In this document: positions 43,057 to 64,000 of the stretch, piece after piece
How positions within the stretch are numbered: the first letter of the stretch is position 1
Layout: every line of letters starts with the position of its first letter
Source: Onthophagus taurus
Lineage: Eukaryota; Arthropoda; Insecta; Coleoptera; Scarabaeidae
DNA length: 64,000 nucleotides
NCBI RefSeq assembly: GCF_036711975.1
Contig: NC_091968.1
Span: 27,389,001-27,453,000, forward strand
Direction: 5' to 3'
Made by a program: the position numbers and the translations under genes
The notes under the pieces: generated by a model
Seen by the model: only the letters and a program-made list of their open reading frames with translations
The model's database searches: none
What the model was told of the DNA's origin: nothing

Positions 43057-43966
43057 TACAAATTTCGTTTTGATTGGTGTCGCCATCTATATGACAAACG
43101 CCTTTTAAAATATAAAAGAATATTAATATTTACTTTTTATTAATATTTAATAATGTTTATTTGTTATAATAAAAATTAATTTTATTTAAATTTTTAATTT
43201 ATAAATATATTCAAAGTTAATAATTTAAAATTTGAGGCGATATTCGTTTTGGTTTGTGTCGCCATCTATATGACAACATAATATTTTAAAAAAATATTAA
43301 TGTTAAGTTTTTATTTATATTCAATCATATTTATTTGTTATAATAAAAATTAATTTTATTTAAATTTTTACTTTATAAATTTATTTAAAGTTAATAATTT
43401 AAAATTTGAGACGATATTCGTTTTGGTTTGTGTCGCCATCTATATGACAGCATAATATTTTAAAAGAATACTAATATTTCGTTTTTATTTATATTCAATC
43501 ATATTTATTTGTTATAATAAGAATTAATTTTATTTAAATTTTTAATTTATAAATTAGTTATTTAAAGTTAAATTTAATTTAAAAATTGAGACGATATTCG
43601 TTTTGGTTTGTGTCGCCATCTATATGACAGATTAATATTTTAAAAAAATATTAATATTTCGTTTTTATTTATATTCAATCATATTTATTTGTTATAATAA
43701 GAATTAATTTTATTTAAATTTTTAATTTATAAATTTGTTATTTAAAGTTAATAATTTAAAAATTGAGACGATATTCGTTTTGGTTTGTGTCGCCATCTAT
43801 ATGACAGATTAATATTTTAAAAAAATATTAATATTTACTTTTTATTTATATTCAATCATACTTACTTATTATAATAAGACTTAATTTTATTTAAATTTTT
43901 AATTAATAAATTAGTTATTTAAAATTAAAGTTAATTTAAAATTTGAGACGATAATAAAGATTTCTG
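43057..43966. repeat. 178-bp satellite array upstream of SEC22, 5 copies
   Basis: GTGTCGCCATCTATATGACA recurs near 43079, 43258, 43432, 43611 and 43789 (175-179 bp apart). AT-rich monomers with ATATTCAATCATATTTATTT. Bracketed by TTACAAAAA(AA)TGACGT at 43040-43056 and 43967-43981. It ends about 75 bp before the SEC22 start codon. Confidence 0.9.
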
Positions 43967-53500: not shown

Positions 53501-55010
53501 CTATCCACAGCTGGGCAGTAGTTAACTACTTTTTGTGTAAAAGTAGTTGTATTCTAACTACTTTTGTTCTATTAGTAGTTATACTCGACTATTTTATGCT
53601 AGCATAAAATATTCACAGAAAGTAGTTAACTCCTCATTGTTAGCTACTTTAGGTATTCTAACTATTTTTGTTAATTTTAATTCCTTTTAAGTAATTTAGC
53701 TACTTTTAAGACAGTTTAAGTACTTCCAAATATCTAGTATGTACTTACATACACAAGCCCTCAAAAGAATCTGACTTTTAAGCATAATTTATATAGAACA
53801 TTTAATCATTATTAATGATTATTATTCACCGCTATTATTCACTCCGTGAAAAATGACTACCATTTTGTTTTAGAAAACTCATTTATAATAAAGTTTAAGA
53901 ATAATAAAGAATAAAGTTTAAACGTCAATGTGACACAAATTCAACTGTAACCAACTTCACAACAATTTGTCAAAATTAAACGTTAATTTTATAAAACGTC
54001 GTTTTCTTTACGAAAATTAATTAATTAATGCTTAAATTATACGAAAAATGGAATTTGTTTAGGTTTTTTAATGTCAAACCTTTAAAAACTCCCAAAAAAT
54101 TGAATTAAATTGACGTTTTTTGAAATTTTAACGTTTCAAATAATTATTATTAGTCTGTCAAGTTGGTTACCCGTGAATAATGATTATCATTCACCGCTAT
54201 TATTCACTCCGTGAAAAATGACTACCCTTTTGTTTTAGAAAACTCATTCATAAGGTATATATTATAAGTGATTATAAGGTGTAGTCGTGGACAAAAAAAT
54301 ATTACAGTTTAAGTAATTTGTTAGCGCCATCTAGCGGCGAATAAATGTAACTAATAGAGAAATTTACAGTAATTTACAATTCGAGATGAAAATGCTGATT
54401 TTACTTAGATATTATTAATACTAATTATTATATTATTTTTGTAAGAAAATCGTGAGAAGTACATGACAAATCGTGAGATTAAAGGTAATGTCATGAGATC
54501 TCACGATAAATCGTTTTGGGACTGATTGTATGTCGAAATCTACCGTAAGATGGCATTAGCATCTATACTGAAATAATTTAATTAAACCAACAATTTTATT
54601 ATTAATAATGGGAATGATGACAGACAGCAATAACAATTATTACCAGTATCATTCTTTTAATTTAAAAAGTAGAGATTCCAATTCGTGTTATATTTTTAAA
54701 TTTGTCGCTAACTTCAACTTTTTAAAAGTTGAATGATTGTTCAGAATGACAGATGAAAACGTCATTTTAAAGTGTTTTTTCGGTAAGAGTATAATAAAGT
54801 AATAATGGTATGATTAAATAATTACATTATAATTGACATTAAAGCTTTGTTTCAGCTAATGTGATAAGTTATTGAAAGCTCGTCAGATGCAATCTTACAT
54901 GTCATATGATGCAGTGTGATATTCAAATGTGTGGCATTATTTGACAGGTGTAATTGCCGTAATTTGTAAGTAATTGCATCTGAGGAATTCCCAATCAGTC
55001 GGAACGTTAA
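53501..55010. other. Intergenic with local direct repeats
   Basis: 53535-53700: AGTAGTTAACTACTTTT words. A ~70-bp direct repeat (CACCGCTATTATTCACTCCG, TTTTGTTTTAGAAAACTCAT) occurs at 53815-53884 and 54178-54247. 53900-54010 is an inverted relative of 25640-25740. TAGCGCCATCTAGCGGCG at 54322-54339 contains AGATGGCG in reverse. No gene. Confidence 0.5.
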
Positions 55011-55035
55011 TTGGAGCCACCATTAGTGGCTCCAA
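55011..55035. other. Perfect 10-bp stem, 5-nt loop
   Basis: TTGGAGCCAC - CATTA - GTGGCTCCAA. Isolated short hairpin with no flanking T-tract; function unknown. Confidence 0.5.
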
Positions 55036-55204
55036 ACAGTTATTCTGTGGTTGGAGTTTTTATATATAAACCCAATCCAACCGGTATTCTAGTGGTTCGG
55101 TTCTTAGCTGAATAATTCCGAAATATCCCCAACAGATGGCGGCACATGCGTTCAATTTTTTTTTTAGTACGCAGTTTCTTTTAAAGAGTTGCATTTCTAC
55201 GAAG

Positions 55205-57300
55205 CTATTTTCTATGGTGAGACCTGGAAACCTTTGTTGACCACATCCTTTACGTCAGTTCTTCTTCATAGGTCTTCATTTCGTATGTAGTCCCTCAGAG
55301 TTACACCCAGGATCGACCTCTACTTCTATCTTTGCGTTACTTGGACCCCCCTAGCAGTGGCTACCGTTAATGTTCAAGTTTTGGAGCCGTATGTCATAAC
55401 CGGAAACACGCATTGATTGAAAGCCTTTCTTGGCTTTTTCTCTTGGAAATGTCTCTAAGTTTCCCGTATTCTGCCCATACGAGTGTAATCCTTCTGTTTA
55501 GTTCGCTTGTTTGATTATCTCTATAAACGAATTTAATTTATTTAAAAAATGCGATTGCTTAAATTAAGATTGCTGAAATGTCAAATTTTAAATGAAATAG
55601 GAGCCATCTAGTTTCTTTTTATTGTATTAAATTAATAAACGAATTTAATTTATTTAAAATTTTGCGATTATTTAAATTAAGATTGATTAAATGTTTATAT
55701 CATTATTAATTTATTTGTTTATAATATATCAATATTTATTAAATATAAATATGTTTATTCGTATGGAGATGTTATGTTGGTTGCCTACTAAATGTAGTTT
55801 TGCCACACAATAACCAGAAATAACACTGACGTCGATTCGTTTGATGTTGACGGCACATCGTATTGTACAAAATCATTAACAATTAATAAACAAATTTATT
55901 TTATTTAAAATAATGCCATTGTTTAAATTAAGATTGCTAAAATGTCAAATTTTAAATGAAATAGGAGCCATCTAGTTTCTTTTTATTGTATTAAGTTAAT
56001 AAACGAGTTTAATTTATTTAAAATTTTGCGATTATTTAAATTAAGATTTATTAAATGTTTATATCATTATTAATTTATTTGTTCATAATATATCAATATT
56101 CATTAAATATATGTTTATTCGAATGGAGATGTTATGTTGGTTGCCTACTAAATGTAGTTTTGCCACAGAATTACCATAAATAACACTGACGTCGATTCGT
56201 TTGATGTTGACGGCACCTCGTTTTGTACAAAATCATTAACAATTAATAAACGACTTTAATTTATTTAAAATAATGCCATTGTTTAAATTAAGATTGCTAA
56301 AATGTCAAATTTTAAATGAAATAGGAGCCATCTAGTTTCTTTTTATTGTATTAAATTAATAAACGAATTTAATTTATTTAAAATTGTGCGATTATTTAAA
56401 TTAAGATTGATTAAATGTTTATATCATTATTAATTTATTTGTTTATAATATATCAATATTTATTAAATATAAATATGTTTATTCGTATGGAGATGTTATG
56501 TTGGTTGCCTACTAAATGTAGTTTTGCCACACAATAACCAGAAATAACACTGACGTCGATTCGTTTGATGTTGACGGCACATCGTATTGTACAAAATCAT
56601 TAACAATTAATAAACAAATTTAATTTATTTAAAATAATGCCATTGTTTAAATTAAGATTGCTGAAATGTCAAATTTTAAAAGAAATAGGAGCCATCTAGT
56701 TTCTTTTTATTGTATTAAATTAATAAACGAATTTAATTTATTTAAAATTTTGCGATTATTTAAATTAAGATTGATTAAATGTTTATATCATTATTAATTT
56801 ATTTGTTTATAATATATCAATATTTATTAAATATAAATATGTTTATTCGTATGGAGATGTTATGTTGGTTGCCTACTAAATGTAGCTTTGCCACGGAATA
56901 ACCAGAAATAACACTGACGTCGATTCATTTGATGTTGACGGCACCTCGTTTTGTACAAAATCATTAACAATTAATAAACGAATTTAATTTATTTAAAATA
57001 ATGCCATTGTTTAAATTAAGATTGCTGAAATGTCAAATTTTAAATGAAATAGGAGCCATCTAGTTTCTTTTTATTGTATTAAATTAATAAACGAATTTAA
57101 TTTATTTAAAATTTTGCGATTATTTAAATTAAGATTGATTAACTGATTATACTATCATTCATTATTATTAATTAAAGTGTCCTCTGTTTCTGTTTAGTTC
57201 GCTTGTTTGATTATCTCACTCATACACTTTCAAAAACCGATTTCGCTGCAGTATGAACATCTTTTATCCACACCTAAACATTTTTTTACATCTTTTTCCC
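55205..57300 (-). pseudogene. RTE-type LINE fragment split by a satellite insertion
   Basis: On the minus strand, 57300-57188 followed directly by 55491-55205 (removing the satellite and one duplicate) reads, in one frame, DNQTSELNRRITLVWAEYGK then LRDISK; later, in shifted frames, KAFNQCVFPVMTYGS and LGVTLRDYIRNEDL. This is the C-terminal RT/thumb region of RTE-clade LINEs. The central 1.67 kb (55522-57187) is satellite flanked by a 30-bp duplication. Frameshifts and stops show the LINE was already old. Confidence 0.75.
55522..57187. repeat. 364-bp satellite array (left of STE24), 5 copies
   Basis: AAATAGGAGCCATCTAGTTT recurs near 55597, 55960, 56320, 56685 and 57049 (360-365 bp). Monomers also contain TGTTGGTTGCCTACTAAATG and ACTGACGTCGATTCGTTTGA. 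Bracketed by a 30-bp direct repeat at 55492-55521 and 57188-57217 (includes CTGTTTAGTTCGCTTGTTTG). The right end is ATTATACTATCATTCATTAT then TAATTAAAGTGTC. Confidence 0.95.
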
Positions 57301-57408: not shown

Positions 57409-58766
57409 TTACTCGAACTTTTTAAGCGCCTTCATTCGCTCTAATAAAGGCGGGTGAGAATGATGCCAACTAGAGTACAAATCATCATAAACGGGGAATC
57501 CCAAATTATCCTTATTCAACTTAATCAAAGCCCTTTGAAGCGGCTCAGCTTTTTTCAATTTAGCAGCGAACTCATCAGCTTGAAACTCAAAGTGTCTACT
57601 TAAACACGTCATAATAAACGATAACAAAGAATTATAAGGGGTCATAACATAAGTGGAAATAACCATAAGTCCCACTAAAACCGGCTGACACCCCGCGGGG
57701 AATCCCAACGCTTGATAAACCGGCGAAAATTGAAACATAAAAGAAAAAAATACAAAAACAAACAATAAATGAAGTTGCATTATGACTAAATTTTTAATGA
57801 TGTGCCCGTGACTCCAATGGCCCAATTCGTGACTCAAAACTGCGAGAATTTCGTCGTTTTTGCAACCGGAATCGTCATTTTGCAATAAAGTGTCAAATAA
57901 AACGATACGTTTTGATTTAAATAAACCGTAAAAATAAGCGTTACTATGCGAAGATCGTTTCGAACCTTCAACAACATATAATTGAGTCAATGGAAATTTT
58001 AAATCAGACGCTAACGTTTCAATATCAGCGCGTAATTCGCCTTCCGGTAGTGGAGTGTATTTATCAAACAAGGGGGCAATAAAAGCTGGGTAAATGGTGA
58101 TCATTAATAAAGCGATAACTCCAACAACCAACCATAACCAAACGAAAAAGAATGGACCTCCGTATTTAATAATAACAATTGTTAAGGATGATAAGGGTAA
58201 CGAAATGGCTTGTTGAAAAATAAACCATTTGATTTTATCAACAACGAAAAATTTAGGCGTTTGTTTGTTAAAACCATATTTTTCCTCCAACACAAAAGTA
58301 TAAAAAATTGTAAATGGGAGGTCGATAATCGTAGAAATAGTTGTAAATAAAAATATCCAAATACAACTAATCAATACTTCTCCTTCCCATGGATTAATAC
58401 TTTCAGAGTAACTCCATAACTTTGCCAAAACCCCGCAATAAATCATCATTGTAGTCACCGACAACGAAAAAATATCATGGATAAAATTAAATTTGCTTTT
58501 ATCCAAAGAGTACAAACGCGCCTTATTAAACGTTTCCTTTGTCATAACAGATTCAAGCTCCGCGGGGACCTCCTCCGTTTTTAAACACTTGGAATACTAA
58601 AAATAATCGATTTAGATAAAGTTTTAAACAAAAATTTTTGAGGTTAGATTACCTGTCTTGCCGCTAGGTAGAGTTCCCATAACGTTTCGATCCATAAAAA
58701 TGCTAGAATTGCGTATAAAACCGTCCGATCACTTATACTGCTTTCAAAAATTTCTTCTTTTTGCAT
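57409..58766 (-). CDS. STE24: CAAX prenyl protease 1 (STE24 / ZMPSTE24)
   Basis: Integral ER/nuclear-membrane zinc metalloprotease that removes the C-terminal tripeptide of prenylated CAAX proteins. Exons: 58766-58653 (38 codons) and 58596-57409; a 56-bp GT-AG intron, phase 0; 433 residues, near insect STE24 length. Exon 1 encodes MQKEEIFESSISD and the first membrane helix (AILAFLWIETLWELYL). Several further hydrophobic segments follow. Zinc motif VLSHELGHWSHGH (HExxH, residues ~294-298) and the third ligand in HFEFQADEFA (Glu ~375) are present, as are the family words LPFTIFYTFVLEEKYGFN and RSSHSNAYFYG. Minus-strand AATAAA lies about 40 bp past the stop. No defects. The gene is enclosed by two arrays of the same satellite. 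Confidence 0.97.
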
Positions 58767-58829
58767 TATTTCGGTATAAAAGAAATGTTTTTATTCAAGT
58801 TAACCTTTACGACTTTTTTGACAACGCTT

Positions 58830-60310
58830 AAATGTCAAATTTTAAATGAAATAGGAGCCATCTAGTTTCTTTTTATTGTATTAAATTAATAAACGAATTT
58901 AATTTATTTAAAATTATGCGATTATTTAAATTAAGATTGATTAAATGTTTATATTATTATTCATAATTATTAATTTTTTTTATAATATATCAATATTCAC
59001 TAAATATATGTTTATTCGTAGGGAAATGTTATGTTGGTTGCCTACTAAATGTAGTTTTGCCACAGAATAATCAGAAATAAGACTGACGTCGATTCGTTTG
59101 ATGTTGATGTCACCTCGTATTGTACAAAATCATTAACAATAATTAATAAACGAATTTAATTTATTTAAAATAATGGGATTGTTTAAATTAAGATTGCTAA
59201 AATGTCAAATTTTAAATGAAATAGGAGCCATCTAGTTTCTTTTTATTGTATTAAGTTAATAAACGAATTTAATTTATTTAAAATTTTGCGATTATTTAAA
59301 TTAAGATTGATTAAATGTTTATATCATTATTAATTTATTTGTTTATAATATATCAATATTCATTAAATATATGTTTATTCGTACGGAGATGTTATGTTGG
59401 TTGCCTACTAAATGTAGTTTTGCCACAGAATAATAAGAAATAAGACTTACGTCGATTCGTTTGATGTTGATGTCACCTCGTATTGTACAAAATCATTAAC
59501 AATAATTAATAAACGAATTTAATTTATTTAAAATGATGCGATTGTTTAAATTAAGATTGCTAAAATGTCAAATTTTAAATGAAATAGGAGCCATCTAGTT
59601 TCTTTTTATTGTATTAAATTAATAAACGAATTTAATTTATTTAAAATTTTGCGATTATTTAAATTAAGATTGATTAAATGTTTATATCATTATTAATTTA
59701 TTTGTTTATAATATATCAATATTCACTAAATATATGTTTATTCGTATGGAGATGTTATGTTGGTTGCCTACTAAATGTAGTTTTTCCACGGAATAATCAG
59801 AAATAAGACTGACGTCGATTCGTTTGATGTTGATGTCACCTCGTATTGTACAAAATCATTAACAATTAATAAACGAATTTAATTTATTTAAAATAATGCG
59901 ATTGTTTAAATTAAGATTGCTAAAATGTCAAATTTTAAATGAAGTAGGAGCCATCTAGTTTCTTTTTATTGTATTAAGTTATTAAACGAATTTAATTTAT
60001 TTAAAATTATGCGATTATTTAAATTAAGACTGATTAAATGTTTATATCATTATTAATTTATTTGTTTATAATATATCAATATTCATTAAATATATGTTTA
60101 TTCCTATGGAGATGTTATGTTGGTTGCCTACTAAATGTAGTTTTGCCACAGAATAAAATGAACACTGACGTCGATTCGTTTGATATTGACGGCACTTCGT
60201 TTTGTACAAAATCATTAACAATTAATAAACGAATTTAATTTATTTAAAATTATGCGATTATTTAAATAAAGATTGTTTTAATGATTATACTATCATTCAT
60301 TATTATTAAT
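58830..60310. repeat. 364-bp satellite array (right of STE24), 4 copies
   Basis: Same monomer as 55522-57187 (AAATAGGAGCCATCTAGTTT near 58850, 59220, 59584, 59944). It starts in mid-monomer about 65 bp upstream of the STE24 start codon and ends with the same terminal sequence ATTATACTATCATTCATTAT then TAATTAAAGTATC. Confidence 0.95.
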
Positions 60311-60412
60311 TAAAGTATCTTCTTTTTAATGCAAAAAGCTGTTTTGAAAAATCACTTTTAGTTCCTGAGAAATAAATTTTTGAAATAATCGACAATTTTC
60401 ATTTTAATCATA

Positions 60413-60900
60413 AAAGTTGCAATTTTTTTTACAATTGAGGTTATAACCTAATTATGAGTTAATTGTCAAATATTGACAGCTAACTTCAGCTAACTCATTG
60501 GTTTTTAGTTTGTATAGGTTATGTACCATTAAAATGAAGATAAATTTGATTCAAAAATTATTGCAGATAATTAATTAATAACATTTTTAACAACTAATGT
60601 TTATTTTATTTTGAGGTTATAACTTAAATTATGAGTTGTCAAATTTTGACAGCTAATTTCTTTCTAATTTGTGTAGGTTATGAGATGTGAAATTAAAATG
60701 AGGATACATTTGATTCAAAAATTAATAAAGATAATCCATTAATAACATTTCTAACAACAAATGTTTATTTTATTTCAATTATTTATGTAAATGTCTTTGT
60801 AACAAATTGATTTAAAAACTTGACATAACAAAATTCCCTGTTAATCTTACCAACTGTAACTAACTTTACAATTTGACAGATTTAATCTCAAATTGTAAGC
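60413..60900. repeat. ~177-bp repeat pair, copy left of CLPX
   Basis: GAGGTTATAACCTAA with ATTGACAGCTAACTTCAGCT at 60437 and again (diverged) at 60613, followed by TACCAACTGTAACTAACTTT. The same two-unit-plus-tail layout is at 62763-63245. Confidence 0.75.
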
Positions 60901-61388
60901 ATGGTAATCATTTTTACAATAAAAAATGTCATAAATACCTTTATTGAAGACCATTTGTATTAATTAGTGAGCATCAACCACTAAAGATATTCTTTGTGTT
61001 AATTACAGTAATGTTAATTAACTAATCTGGCAAAAAAAAAATTAATTAAAAATTAAGAAAAAAATGTTTCAACATTTTATTTAATATTAATTTTAACATT
61101 GGATATTTAATAATTTATTTTAGTACCTAAAAATCACCCATTCATCTAAACTCTCCTAGAAATAAAAAAACAATTTAAATTTCAAGTTAAAACTTTTCAG
61201 TTTGCTCTCTAATTGCGCAAAAAAATACAGAGGTAAAAATCTTTCGAAGGAAAAAAAATTTATATGCCTATGCCGTTCTTCTCGCTTTCGTATATTAATA
61301 TTATTTACACTTTTATTTATTTATTTCATATACTTTAATTATATTTTAAACCATCGTCGTTTTCTTCTAATGGTTATTAAAAAACCAA
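60901..61388. other. CLPX 3' flank
   Basis: AT-rich; TTTATT words near 61310-61325 give AATAAA on the minus strand within 80 bp of the CLPX stop. The plus-strand frame 61202-61399 is antisense to this and probably chance. Confidence 0.4.
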
Positions 61389-62719
61389 CTATATCCTGAT
61401 GGAAGTCTTTAAATCCTCTACATCCGCCGTCGGATCCGTTGTCGAACCTTTCACATAAACCGGACCGTTTGAACCTAAAACGTACTCCTCCGTTATATGA
61501 ACGCCACTTATTCCTGAACCGGGTATTTCAAACATTGGTTCTAACAACAACGACTCCTAAAACATTCATTAATTAATTAATAAAAATTCAAAAAGATACA
61601 AATTAATTTACTAAAATAGCCCTTAATCCTCTAGCTCCCGTTTTTCTTTCCATCGCTAATCTAGCAACGGCTTTCAACGCTTCTGGAGTGAACGTTAATT
61701 CGCATTGATCCATCGCCAATAATCTTTGATATTGCGGGATTAAAGCATTTTTTGGTTCCGTTAATATTCTAACGAGCATATTTTTATCTAAACTATGGAA
61801 AGGAACTAAAACGGGAAATCTTCCTACGAATTCCGGTATCATTCCAAAATCGATTAAATCTCTCGCTTGAACTTTCCTAAGCATTTGATCCTTTTCCCGA
61901 TTTTCATCTTCAGCGGAAAGATCGCTTTGAGCTTGTTGAGAAACCGCTCTTCGACCTTCACTACCTCCAGAAGCGGGAGCTCCAAATCCAAAGAACTAAA
62001 AATATTAAATAATAATAAAATTAATTTATTATTATTAATTAAATTAAAAGGAAATTTACATTTGCGTTATGTCTACGCGATATTAACCGTTCCAAACCAT
62101 TATAAGCACCGCTAGCAACAAAAAGGATATTTGTTGTATCAACTTGGATGGTTTCTCCGCGTAATTTTCTTGGGGAATTTCTTTCTGGTACATTAACAAT
62201 CGTGCCTTCAAGCATTTTTAACATTCCTTGTTGAACTCCTTCACCTCCAACGTCTCTTAATTGATGAATACCGGGTACAGCACCAATCTTATCAACCTCA
62301 TCCAAAAAGACAATTCCAATTTGAGCCCTATCGACGCTATATCCAGCATCTTGCAATAATTTCCCAATTACACTCTCGATATCTTCCCCTACATAACCGG
62401 CTTGCGTTAAAGTGGTGCAATCGCATATGGCAAAAGGAACATCTAAACATTGAGCTATTGTTTGTGCGAGTAAAGTTTTTCCTACCAAAAAATTAGTTTA
62501 TTAATAAATTTTATTAATTTTTTTTTAATTTACCTGATCCTGTTGGGCCTAATAAGAGTATGTTACTCTTTTCTAATTTGAGATCGTGAGTTGTTCTGTC
62601 TAAAATATCAGAGCCGACGGCCGAAGATGATCTATTCATGTTTCCGGTCGAGTCCCCGCCTTGATTTTGGAGACTAAAACCCAGGTTGTTATGGCCCATT
62701 CCTGTTATATGGATGAGAT
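61389..62719 (-). CDS. ClpX: Mitochondrial ATP-dependent unfoldase CLPX (N-terminal exons outside window)
   Basis: AAA+ unfoldase that feeds substrates to mitochondrial ClpP. Exons seen: 62719-62534, 62481-62060, 61995-61612, 61556-61389, GT-AG, in frame, about 386 codons. The first visible exon begins in the linker ([14 protein letters not shown]), so the mitochondrial targeting peptide and the zinc-binding domain lie to the right of the window. Motifs: [10 protein letters not shown] (Walker A, across the first intron), GYVGED (pore-1 loop), [11 protein letters not shown] (Walker B), [18 protein letters not shown] (sensor 1 and the RKH-type loop), [16 protein letters not shown] (box VII), [11 protein letters not shown] (sensor 2). 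C-terminus DLKTSIRI. A Ser/Gly-rich stretch ([17 protein letters not shown]) is usual for metazoan CLPX. The intron containing 62720-64000 exceeds 1.28 kb and is full of repeats. Confidence 0.96.
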
Positions 62720-62762
62720 CTGCACATTTTATATGTTCTCAGAAGAAATTATTTTTATTTTT

Positions 62763-63245
62763 CGTAAAAATTTTTAATTTGAGGTTATAACCTATAAATT
62801 ATGAGTTAATTGTCAAATTTTGACAGCTAACTTCAGCTAATTCATTGGTTTTTAGTTTAAATAGGTTAATTGCAATTAAAATTAGAATAAATTTGAATCA
62901 AAAATTAATAAAGATAATTGATTAATAACATTTTTAACAATTAATGTTTATTTTACTTTGAGGTTATAACCTAAATTATGAGTTAAATTTCAAATTTTGA
63001 CAGCTAACTTCAGGTAACTTATTGGCGTTTAGTTTATATAGGTTATGTGGAATTAAAATGAGGATAAATTTGATTCAAAAATTATTGAGGATAATTAATT
63101 AATAACATTTTTAACAATTAATGCTTATTTTATTTTAATTATTTGTGTAAATCTTAAATTGATTTAAAAACTTGACATAACAAAAATCCCTGCTAATTTT
63201 ACCAACTGTCACTAACTTTATAATTTGACAGATTTAACCTCAAAA
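62763..63245. repeat. ~177-bp repeat pair in CLPX intron
   Basis: Direct copy of the 60413-60900 block: GAGGTTATAACCTA units at 62781 and 62960, then TACCAACTGTCACTAACTTT. A further unit starts at 63833 and runs to the window edge. Confidence 0.8.
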
Positions 63246-63249
63246 TTAC

Positions 63250-63830
63250 AAAGAAATCAATTAAGTTAATAAAAGGCACACGGTTATAAGCTAAATGTAA
63301 GCTAATTACTAATTATAGTAGAAGAAAAGGCAATGATGATGAAGAGGAGATAACCGGAATTTAATATAAATCATAAAGTGTTGACTGAAGGAAGTAAAAA
63401 TAATAGAAAAGAAAAGTTATCAAACTTATATTGTGTAATTTGATGATGGAACTAGATTTATGTATGTAGATCCTTCGAAAATGGATAAGAATAAATCAAC
63501 ATAGTGAAAATATATCAGAGGATGAGAAGAATTTGAAGTATCAATGAAAGTTTACTAACACCAAAAGAGAAAAATGAAGATAAAACAGAAAATGAGATAA
63601 ATGTAATGGTAGCAACTAACTTACGTCGCTCTAAAAGAGTTATAAAGACATCACAAAAACTAGATTTGTAACAAAGGAGGAATTATGAATTATGTTATGT
63701 ATTTAGATGGACACGCACGCCCTCTACAATGTATGAAGCGTGCGTCACAGGAGTGACTTGTAAAACGTAAAAACTGTGTTATTAAAATACACAAGAGTTT
63801 TAATCGTAAAAATTACAACATTTTTAACAA
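63250..63830 (+). pseudogene. LTR-retrotransposon 3' fragment (possible pol end, PPT and LTR start)
   Basis: 63610-63671 translates as VATNLRRSKRVIKTSQKLDL then stop, like the end of Ty3/gypsy-type (or a copia linker) polyprotein. AAAGGAGGAA directly after the stop could be the polypurine tract, and TGTTATGTATTTAG (63692) the LTR start. The candidate LTR stops near 63825 where the 177-bp repeat resumes. No RT or integrase is seen, so the assignment is tentative. Confidence 0.4.
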
Positions 63831-63832
63831 TT

Positions 63833-64000
63833 TGAGGTTATAACCTAAATTATGAGTTAATTGTCAAATATTGACAGCTAACTTCAGCTAACTGTTATGT
63901 GGAATTAAAATGAGGATAAATTTGATTCAAAAATTATTGAAGATAATTAATTAATAACATTTTTAACAATTAATGTTTATTTTATTTTAATTATTTGTGT
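63833..64000. repeat. Further unit of the ~177-bp CLPX-associated repeat (cut by window edge)
   Basis: GAGGTTATAACCTAAATTAT and GACAGCTAACTTCAGCTAAC, then GAGGATAAATTTGATTCAAA, matching the units at 60437 and 62781. Confidence 0.75.

Follow-up and report, generated by a model that had tools for sequence, protein, structure and literature searches.

When a short satellite array turns up in gene-rich DNA, its route of arrival usually has to be inferred with no empty site for comparison. This question arises at a locus of the beetle Onthophagus taurus, within a window of 64,000 nucleotides of contig C3 (C3:27389001-27453000; the genome comprises 291 Mb in 33 contigs). The 30-mer TTCTGTTTAGTTCGCTTGTTTGATTATCTC occurs identically at 55492-55521 and 57188-57217, on either side of a 364-bp satellite array (array 1), and directly abuts it. 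These two sites are the only ones in the window in a search allowing up to five substitutions. The preliminary description had noticed this bracketing repeat, and we confirm it with perfect identity between the copies. The interrupted target is a LINE fragment that we take to belong to the RTE family, a name given on recognising its peptide and not from a library search. The elements of the insertion are as follows.

55235-55521, minus strand: left part of the target, an internal RTE-type LINE fragment whose last 30 bp are the left duplicate; copies at 88-93% identity.
55492-55521, no strand assigned: left copy of the target duplication, 30 bp, or 31 bp if the T at 55522 is counted.
55523-57163, plus strand: array 1, with four units measuring 364/360 bp plus an incomplete fifth; the unit pattern goes no further than 57163.
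57188-57217, no strand assigned: right copy of the target duplication, 30 bp, the same as the left copy.
57218-57227, minus strand: likely remnant of the RTE to the right of the insertion, ~10 bp, from alignment to RTE copies.

The T at 55522 is an RTE base that matches RTE copy L010, and the left duplicate probably includes it, giving 31 bp with one difference. TRF reported 4.5 copies of 364 bp in array 1, and a manual cut gave five units with the fifth partial; the insert is 1,666 bp long, which is ~4.6 units and not a whole number. Units 1 and 3 are 99.2% identical, and units 2 and 4 are 96.1% identical. These pairwise similarities suggest that the unit number may have changed after insertion, and the number seen in array 1 may thus differ from that originally inserted.

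A long word shared by the two flanks is exceptional among the arrays of this window. We surveyed 17 arrays hand-picked from 67 TRF rows, with the ends of array 1 and of a second array (array 2, below) set manually. The flanks of array 1 share a word of 30 nt, whereas shuffling gave at most 10; this is the sole such case among the 17 arrays, and the longest common flank words of the remaining 16 are 6-12 nt. Words of 11-12 nt were found in three of these 16; two are words of the array itself, and the third is marginal (array 43064-43953). In the latter, the 11-bp word AAAAATGACGT lies 7 and 17 bp from the edges; it slightly exceeds the shuffle maximum of 10 and is the one word among the 16 that does so without being part of its array.

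Other copies of the RTE fragment reveal the site before the insertion. A search of the same genome for the element without the satellite, as proposed in the preliminary description, scored 40 of 606 candidates and listed at least 39 further copies, 88-93% identical, of which 29 were fetched. Each of the 29 aligns over the site; the alignment reaches the last matching base in 19 and falls 10-13 bases short of it in the other 10. With up to four substitutions allowed, the 30-mer is single in 28 of the 29 copies and double in L013, which has two RTE pieces. The RTE continuation TCGATACAC, or a close variant, follows the 30-mer in 28 of 29 copies and is absent in L012. A single 30-mer and the RTE continuation occur together in 27 of 29 copies, and the claim that the LINE records the empty site is therefore borne out in these uninterrupted, paralogous copies. 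A peptide had also been said to read across the site only after removal of the array and one duplicate. This part does not hold: the codons of DNQTSELNRRITLVWAEYGK all fall within 55519-55460, to the left of the array, so nothing needs to be removed to read it.

The target itself is a short relic. The RTE piece is ~297 bp long and internal, without a natural element end. The earlier placement of both 30-mers within an RTE LINE is right for the left side, but past the right repeat RTE sequence extends over at most ~10 bp, and only a fragment is present. These ~10 RTE-like bases are diverged, and 0.5% of 8,000 random window positions match equally well. Beyond them, none of six tested copies aligned above the shuffled 95% point.

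The RTE reverse-transcriptase fragments have been spread inside a hAT-like element, as its cargo (L010-L038; L010:890-2292, for instance, given in RTE-sense orientation). In 12 of the 29 copies, the RTE piece lies inside an element with CAGTG-type ends and 8-bp duplications, nine exact and three with one mismatch. The carrier presumably belongs to the hAT superfamily, a name given on recognition and not from a library search. Neither of its two ends turned up in the window when up to five substitutions were allowed. Target duplications of the RTE family were rejected as a yardstick, since several apparent ones are 8-bp hAT-type duplications around the carrier, and a 39-bp match in L011 was rejected as an RTE duplication because it runs past the piece compared.

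The right end of array 1 indicates where the insert came from. The last unit is altered and fused to a fragment of a different satellite, with a 363-bp unit, and the same edge is found in array 2, on the other side of a gene for an STE24-type protease.

57143-57189, plus strand: right tail common to arrays 1 and 2, an altered unit end with 24-26 bp of the 363-bp satellite.
57409-58545, minus strand: main open frame of an STE24-type CAAX prenyl protease (Pfam PF16491 and PF01435), between arrays 1 and 2.
58653-58766, minus strand: inferred first coding exon of the STE24-type gene, an open frame of 38 codons followed by GT; the splice is inferred.
58828-60301, plus strand: array 2, the likely donor, made of the same 364-bp satellite, upstream of the STE24-type gene.
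60302-60399, plus strand: 363-bp satellite fragment fused to the right end of array 2, ~98 bp; at least 39 other matches, 96-98% identical.

The last 84 bp of array 1 (57106-57189) align without gaps to 60244-60327 of array 2, with 76 of 84 bases identical. The 363-bp satellite part of the array 1 tail is 57164-57189, and its last two bases overlap the right duplicate. Of the final 26 bases, 25 are identical to a copy of the 363-bp satellite; in the controls, unrelated loci reached 14 and shuffled tails no more than 16. The matches to the 363-bp satellite fragment come from a search in which 40 of 1004 candidates were scored, and tandem repeats with a period of 355-364 bp were found at most of the 14 loci fetched from it. 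The shared altered last unit and the same fusion indicate that arrays 1 and 2 most likely share a history. The foreign satellite extends over ~98 bp in array 2 but over 24-26 bp in array 1, where it is cut at the start of the target, and array 1 looks like a truncated, derived copy. Because it has another array's right edge and satellite fusion, array 1 did not grow from the target sequence. These observations support the earlier idea of a pre-formed satellite inserted with a target duplication; insertion of the whole array as one unit is unproven, given the 99.2% and 96.1% identities of its alternating units.

At the right junction, CTGTTT occurs twice (57184-57195) and is single in the RTE: the window reads CTGTTTCTGTTTAG, versus CTGTTTAG, once, in the RTE. 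The doubled motif could be a trace of the new end priming twice on the target.

The candidate donor is close. Scoring 40 of 320 candidates with array 1 as the query gave long matches (1.0-1.7 kb) at three loci, all on contig C3, and otherwise blocks no longer than 72 bp. The insert is thus found at two other loci, arrays 2 and 3, and its tail is common to array 2 only. A gap of 1,640 bp separates array 1 from array 2, which lies to its right in the same orientation; this distance is within the range for a local, non-adjacent donor (less than 5 kb and more than 50 bp). The chance of landing so close in 291 Mb is ~1e-5. By our own reading of the alignments, array 2 seems to be missing ~112 bp of unit sequence immediately ahead of the tail, and the donor would then be an earlier state of array 2. 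No single unit could be named as the donor, as units of arrays 1 and 2 are intermixed in the unit tree, in which one of nine inner branches, uniting the units of array 3, is well supported. Possibly, the donor lies in unassembled satellite DNA.

The duplication, the paralogous empty site, the shared fused tail, and the scarcity of donors in the assembly are what the sequence shows. We consider local repair-mediated duplication of a slice of array 2 into the RTE fragment to be the best explanation, and we hold it with moderate confidence. A staggered break would have opened in the old RTE-derived fragment beside the STE24-type gene, and repair synthesis, by synthesis-dependent strand annealing or polymerase-theta end joining, would have copied a stretch of array 2 from inside a unit to 24-26 bp past its right edge before the other end was rejoined. 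Filling of both staggered ends, offset by 30 bases, would leave the 30-bp target on each side. The new array 1 would later have changed its unit number, so that the initial number can only be supposed, and would have been partly homogenised. A linear, tailless slice that runs past the donor edge and sits in the same orientation 1,640 bp away, between two copies of its target, fits repair copying from nearby DNA. The direction from array 2 to array 1 would follow from the same scheme. No poly-A tail was found at the insert, which agrees with this reading. Against it stand the RTE remnant of only ~10 bp on the right, the left junction, where no microhomology was seen by eye, and the divergence of the tails: those of arrays 1 and 2 are 9.5% different, yet the two 30-mers are identical; if both had the same age, ~2.9 differences would be expected, and the chance of none is ~0.06.

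Events of this kind have been described in vertebrates. Pace et al. (2009) identified 824 proximal repair-mediated duplications in human via interrupted transposons (PMC2671141), and the vertebrate survey found target duplications in 6 of 39 inspected proximal cases and poly-A/T tracts in none (PMC2671141). The human proximal events have duplications of 4-21 nt and inserts of at most 619 bp, which are observed ranges and not definitions (PMC2671141). The present case resembles those events in the interrupted transposon, the relatives that record the empty site, the non-adjacent donor within 5 kb, the lack of poly-A, and the target duplication, which some of them have (PMC2671141). The interruption is documented here by the 27 of 29 copies, with a right RTE remnant of only ~10 bp. 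On the other hand, those cases are vertebrate, whereas this one is in an insect, and its insert is a tandem array with a fused edge, with longer duplication and insert (PMC2671141). Both the 30-bp duplication and the 1.67-kb insert exceed the reported human ranges, which counts against the reading, though the insert may have reached its size through growth of the array afterwards. The insertion itself is real and well documented; it is best explained by local repair copying, an event of a known kind, and not by a new mobile element.

The main rival to repair of a break is replicative template switching, by fork stalling or microhomology-mediated break-induced replication, in which a nascent strand would copy array 2 and return 30 bp behind its exit. 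The same donor and proximity evidence applies to it, and it would leave the same structure. The internal RTE piece of ~297 bp, with a right edge ~10 bp past the repeat, is odd for an independent target, and in a bolder version the RTE fragment itself would have been made in the same patchwork event. However, the left switch is without clear microhomology, no extra switch or inversion was seen, and none of the RTE copies listed (at least 39, from 40 scored among 606 candidates) is near-identical enough to be a donor, the best having 93% identity. We regard template switching as unlikely, though worth keeping in view.

The preliminary description had put forward capture of extrachromosomal circular DNA (eccDNA), retroposition, or an undescribed element. 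None of the three leads any longer, given the nearby donor at 1,640 bp, the linear slice ending past an edge, the lack of a tail and of a common pair of termini, and the failure to find a target duplication at array 2 or at array 3, the latter being cut off by another repeat and saying little. In retroposition, a transcript of array 2 with its tail would be reverse transcribed into the target by LINE machinery, with target duplication. A 30-bp duplication is long but possible for this route, in which target duplications vary in length, and the fixed right end with differing left ends in arrays 1 and 2 resembles 5' truncation. Yet the insert ends have no poly-A or simple-repeat tail, and 363-bp satellite sequence precedes the right duplicate. 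At array 2, no target duplication above chance was found (the best local match between its flanks scores 22; shuffled sequences average 20.1, with a 95% point of 26), and landing 1,640 bp from the source is unexpected for a diffusible RNA. Retroposition is a doubtful reading, with perhaps a small share of the probability.

Capture of a satellite circle at a staggered break has precedent in the dispersal of beetle satellites by circles, proposed in two studies (PMC3411249, PMC5844308), but the geometry of the insert speaks against it. The foreign-satellite edge sits at the very end of the insert, so the circle would need to be opened again exactly where it had been closed, and the insert is not circularly permuted relative to the donor, whose edge is terminal and not internal. 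Neither the fractional number of ~4.6 units nor the proximity of the donor is predicted by a circle, and we consider this route improbable.

A non-autonomous transposable element with internal tandem repeats would agree with a right end common to two loci and with the 41-72 bp block of each unit that is dispersed in the genome. Against this, long matches occur at three loci only (40 of 320 candidates scored), the left ends of arrays 1 and 2 differ, no common termini are seen, array 3 shares a gene flank with array 2 and hence reflects duplication, and no target duplication was found at arrays 2 and 3. Such an element is very improbable here. A Helitron/Helentron reading was rejected, there being no family and a target duplication being present. 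Comparison of the other array copies, suggested beforehand for flanking duplications and shared end points, thus gave a divided outcome: array 2 shares the right end, but no duplications were found at arrays 2 and 3 and the left ends of arrays 1 and 2 differ.

Array 3 (C3:26762350-26763364) lies ~684 kb from array 2. It has in common with array 2 some 120 bp from the region where the STE24-type gene is inferred to start, and 187 of 194 bases are identical over the stretch across the joint of gene start and array. From this shared gene-start sequence, we conclude that array 3 is a duplicate of the left side of array 2, and, as array 3 joins ~120 bp of gene start to the array, the array 2 locus was probably copied before. 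The whole copy, gene start and array, extends over 1.1 kb (L059:7732-8865, i.e. C3:26762231-26763364). The rest of the STE24-type gene was not found at array 3 by tblastn of the main frame against the 19.8 kb fetched. No target duplication was found at array 3 either, where the longest common flank word is 8 nt; its right edge falls exactly where an abundant repeat ends (40 scored among 1146 candidates), and array 3 is thus uninformative. A wider reading of these loci, tentative and in our view rather unlikely, is that array 2 is a recurrent donor copied at least twice, once to a site 1,640 bp away with a 30-bp target duplication and once ~684 kb away with a piece of the STE24-type gene, and that in this genome repair copying, and not circles or transposons, seeds new arrays of short satellites. 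In its boldest form, the RTE fragment and the array would have been laid down in one patchwork event.

Short arrays near genes are known from other animals. The satellite-like elements of Tribolium castaneum euchromatin are similar in being short, gene-near arrays for which insertion is the supposed origin (PMC3411249, PMC5844308). Their dispersal is explained there either by circles together with homologous recombination or by carriers resembling transposons, some with 3-bp duplications (PMC3411249, PMC5844308), whereas the present array has a local donor and a 30-bp duplication. Non-autonomous Helentron elements of the oyster are reported to carry satellite-like arrays, so that tandem repeats also move as a block (PMC7492417); unlike these, array 1 is without common termini or a dispersed family and has a target duplication. 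In the literature consulted, no satellite array was described that combines a long target duplication with a donor nearby, which is no proof of absence. Here the target belongs to a repeat with numerous uninterrupted copies and the donor has an identifiable edge, so that the likely source, the direction, and the end points of the arrival can be read, and the present case favours local repair copying over circles.

Several other repeats adjoin this locus. The right end of the window (60402-64000), together with L061:15-2881, is a repeat cluster with segments recurring about every 880 bp downstream. A repeat at 54516-55216 is also present in L061 (89-91%) and is broken here by ~225 bp. Full satellite units hold a block dispersed genome-wide (41-72 bp matches, CACAGAATAACCAGAA...), for example at 56891-56954 and in the same phase in other units. 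This block forms inverted pairs in L004 and lies near a 127-bp repeat in L004, L007, and L008. Its dispersal, its inverted pairs, and its proximity to the 127-bp repeat suggest that the satellite unit may include a transposon end.
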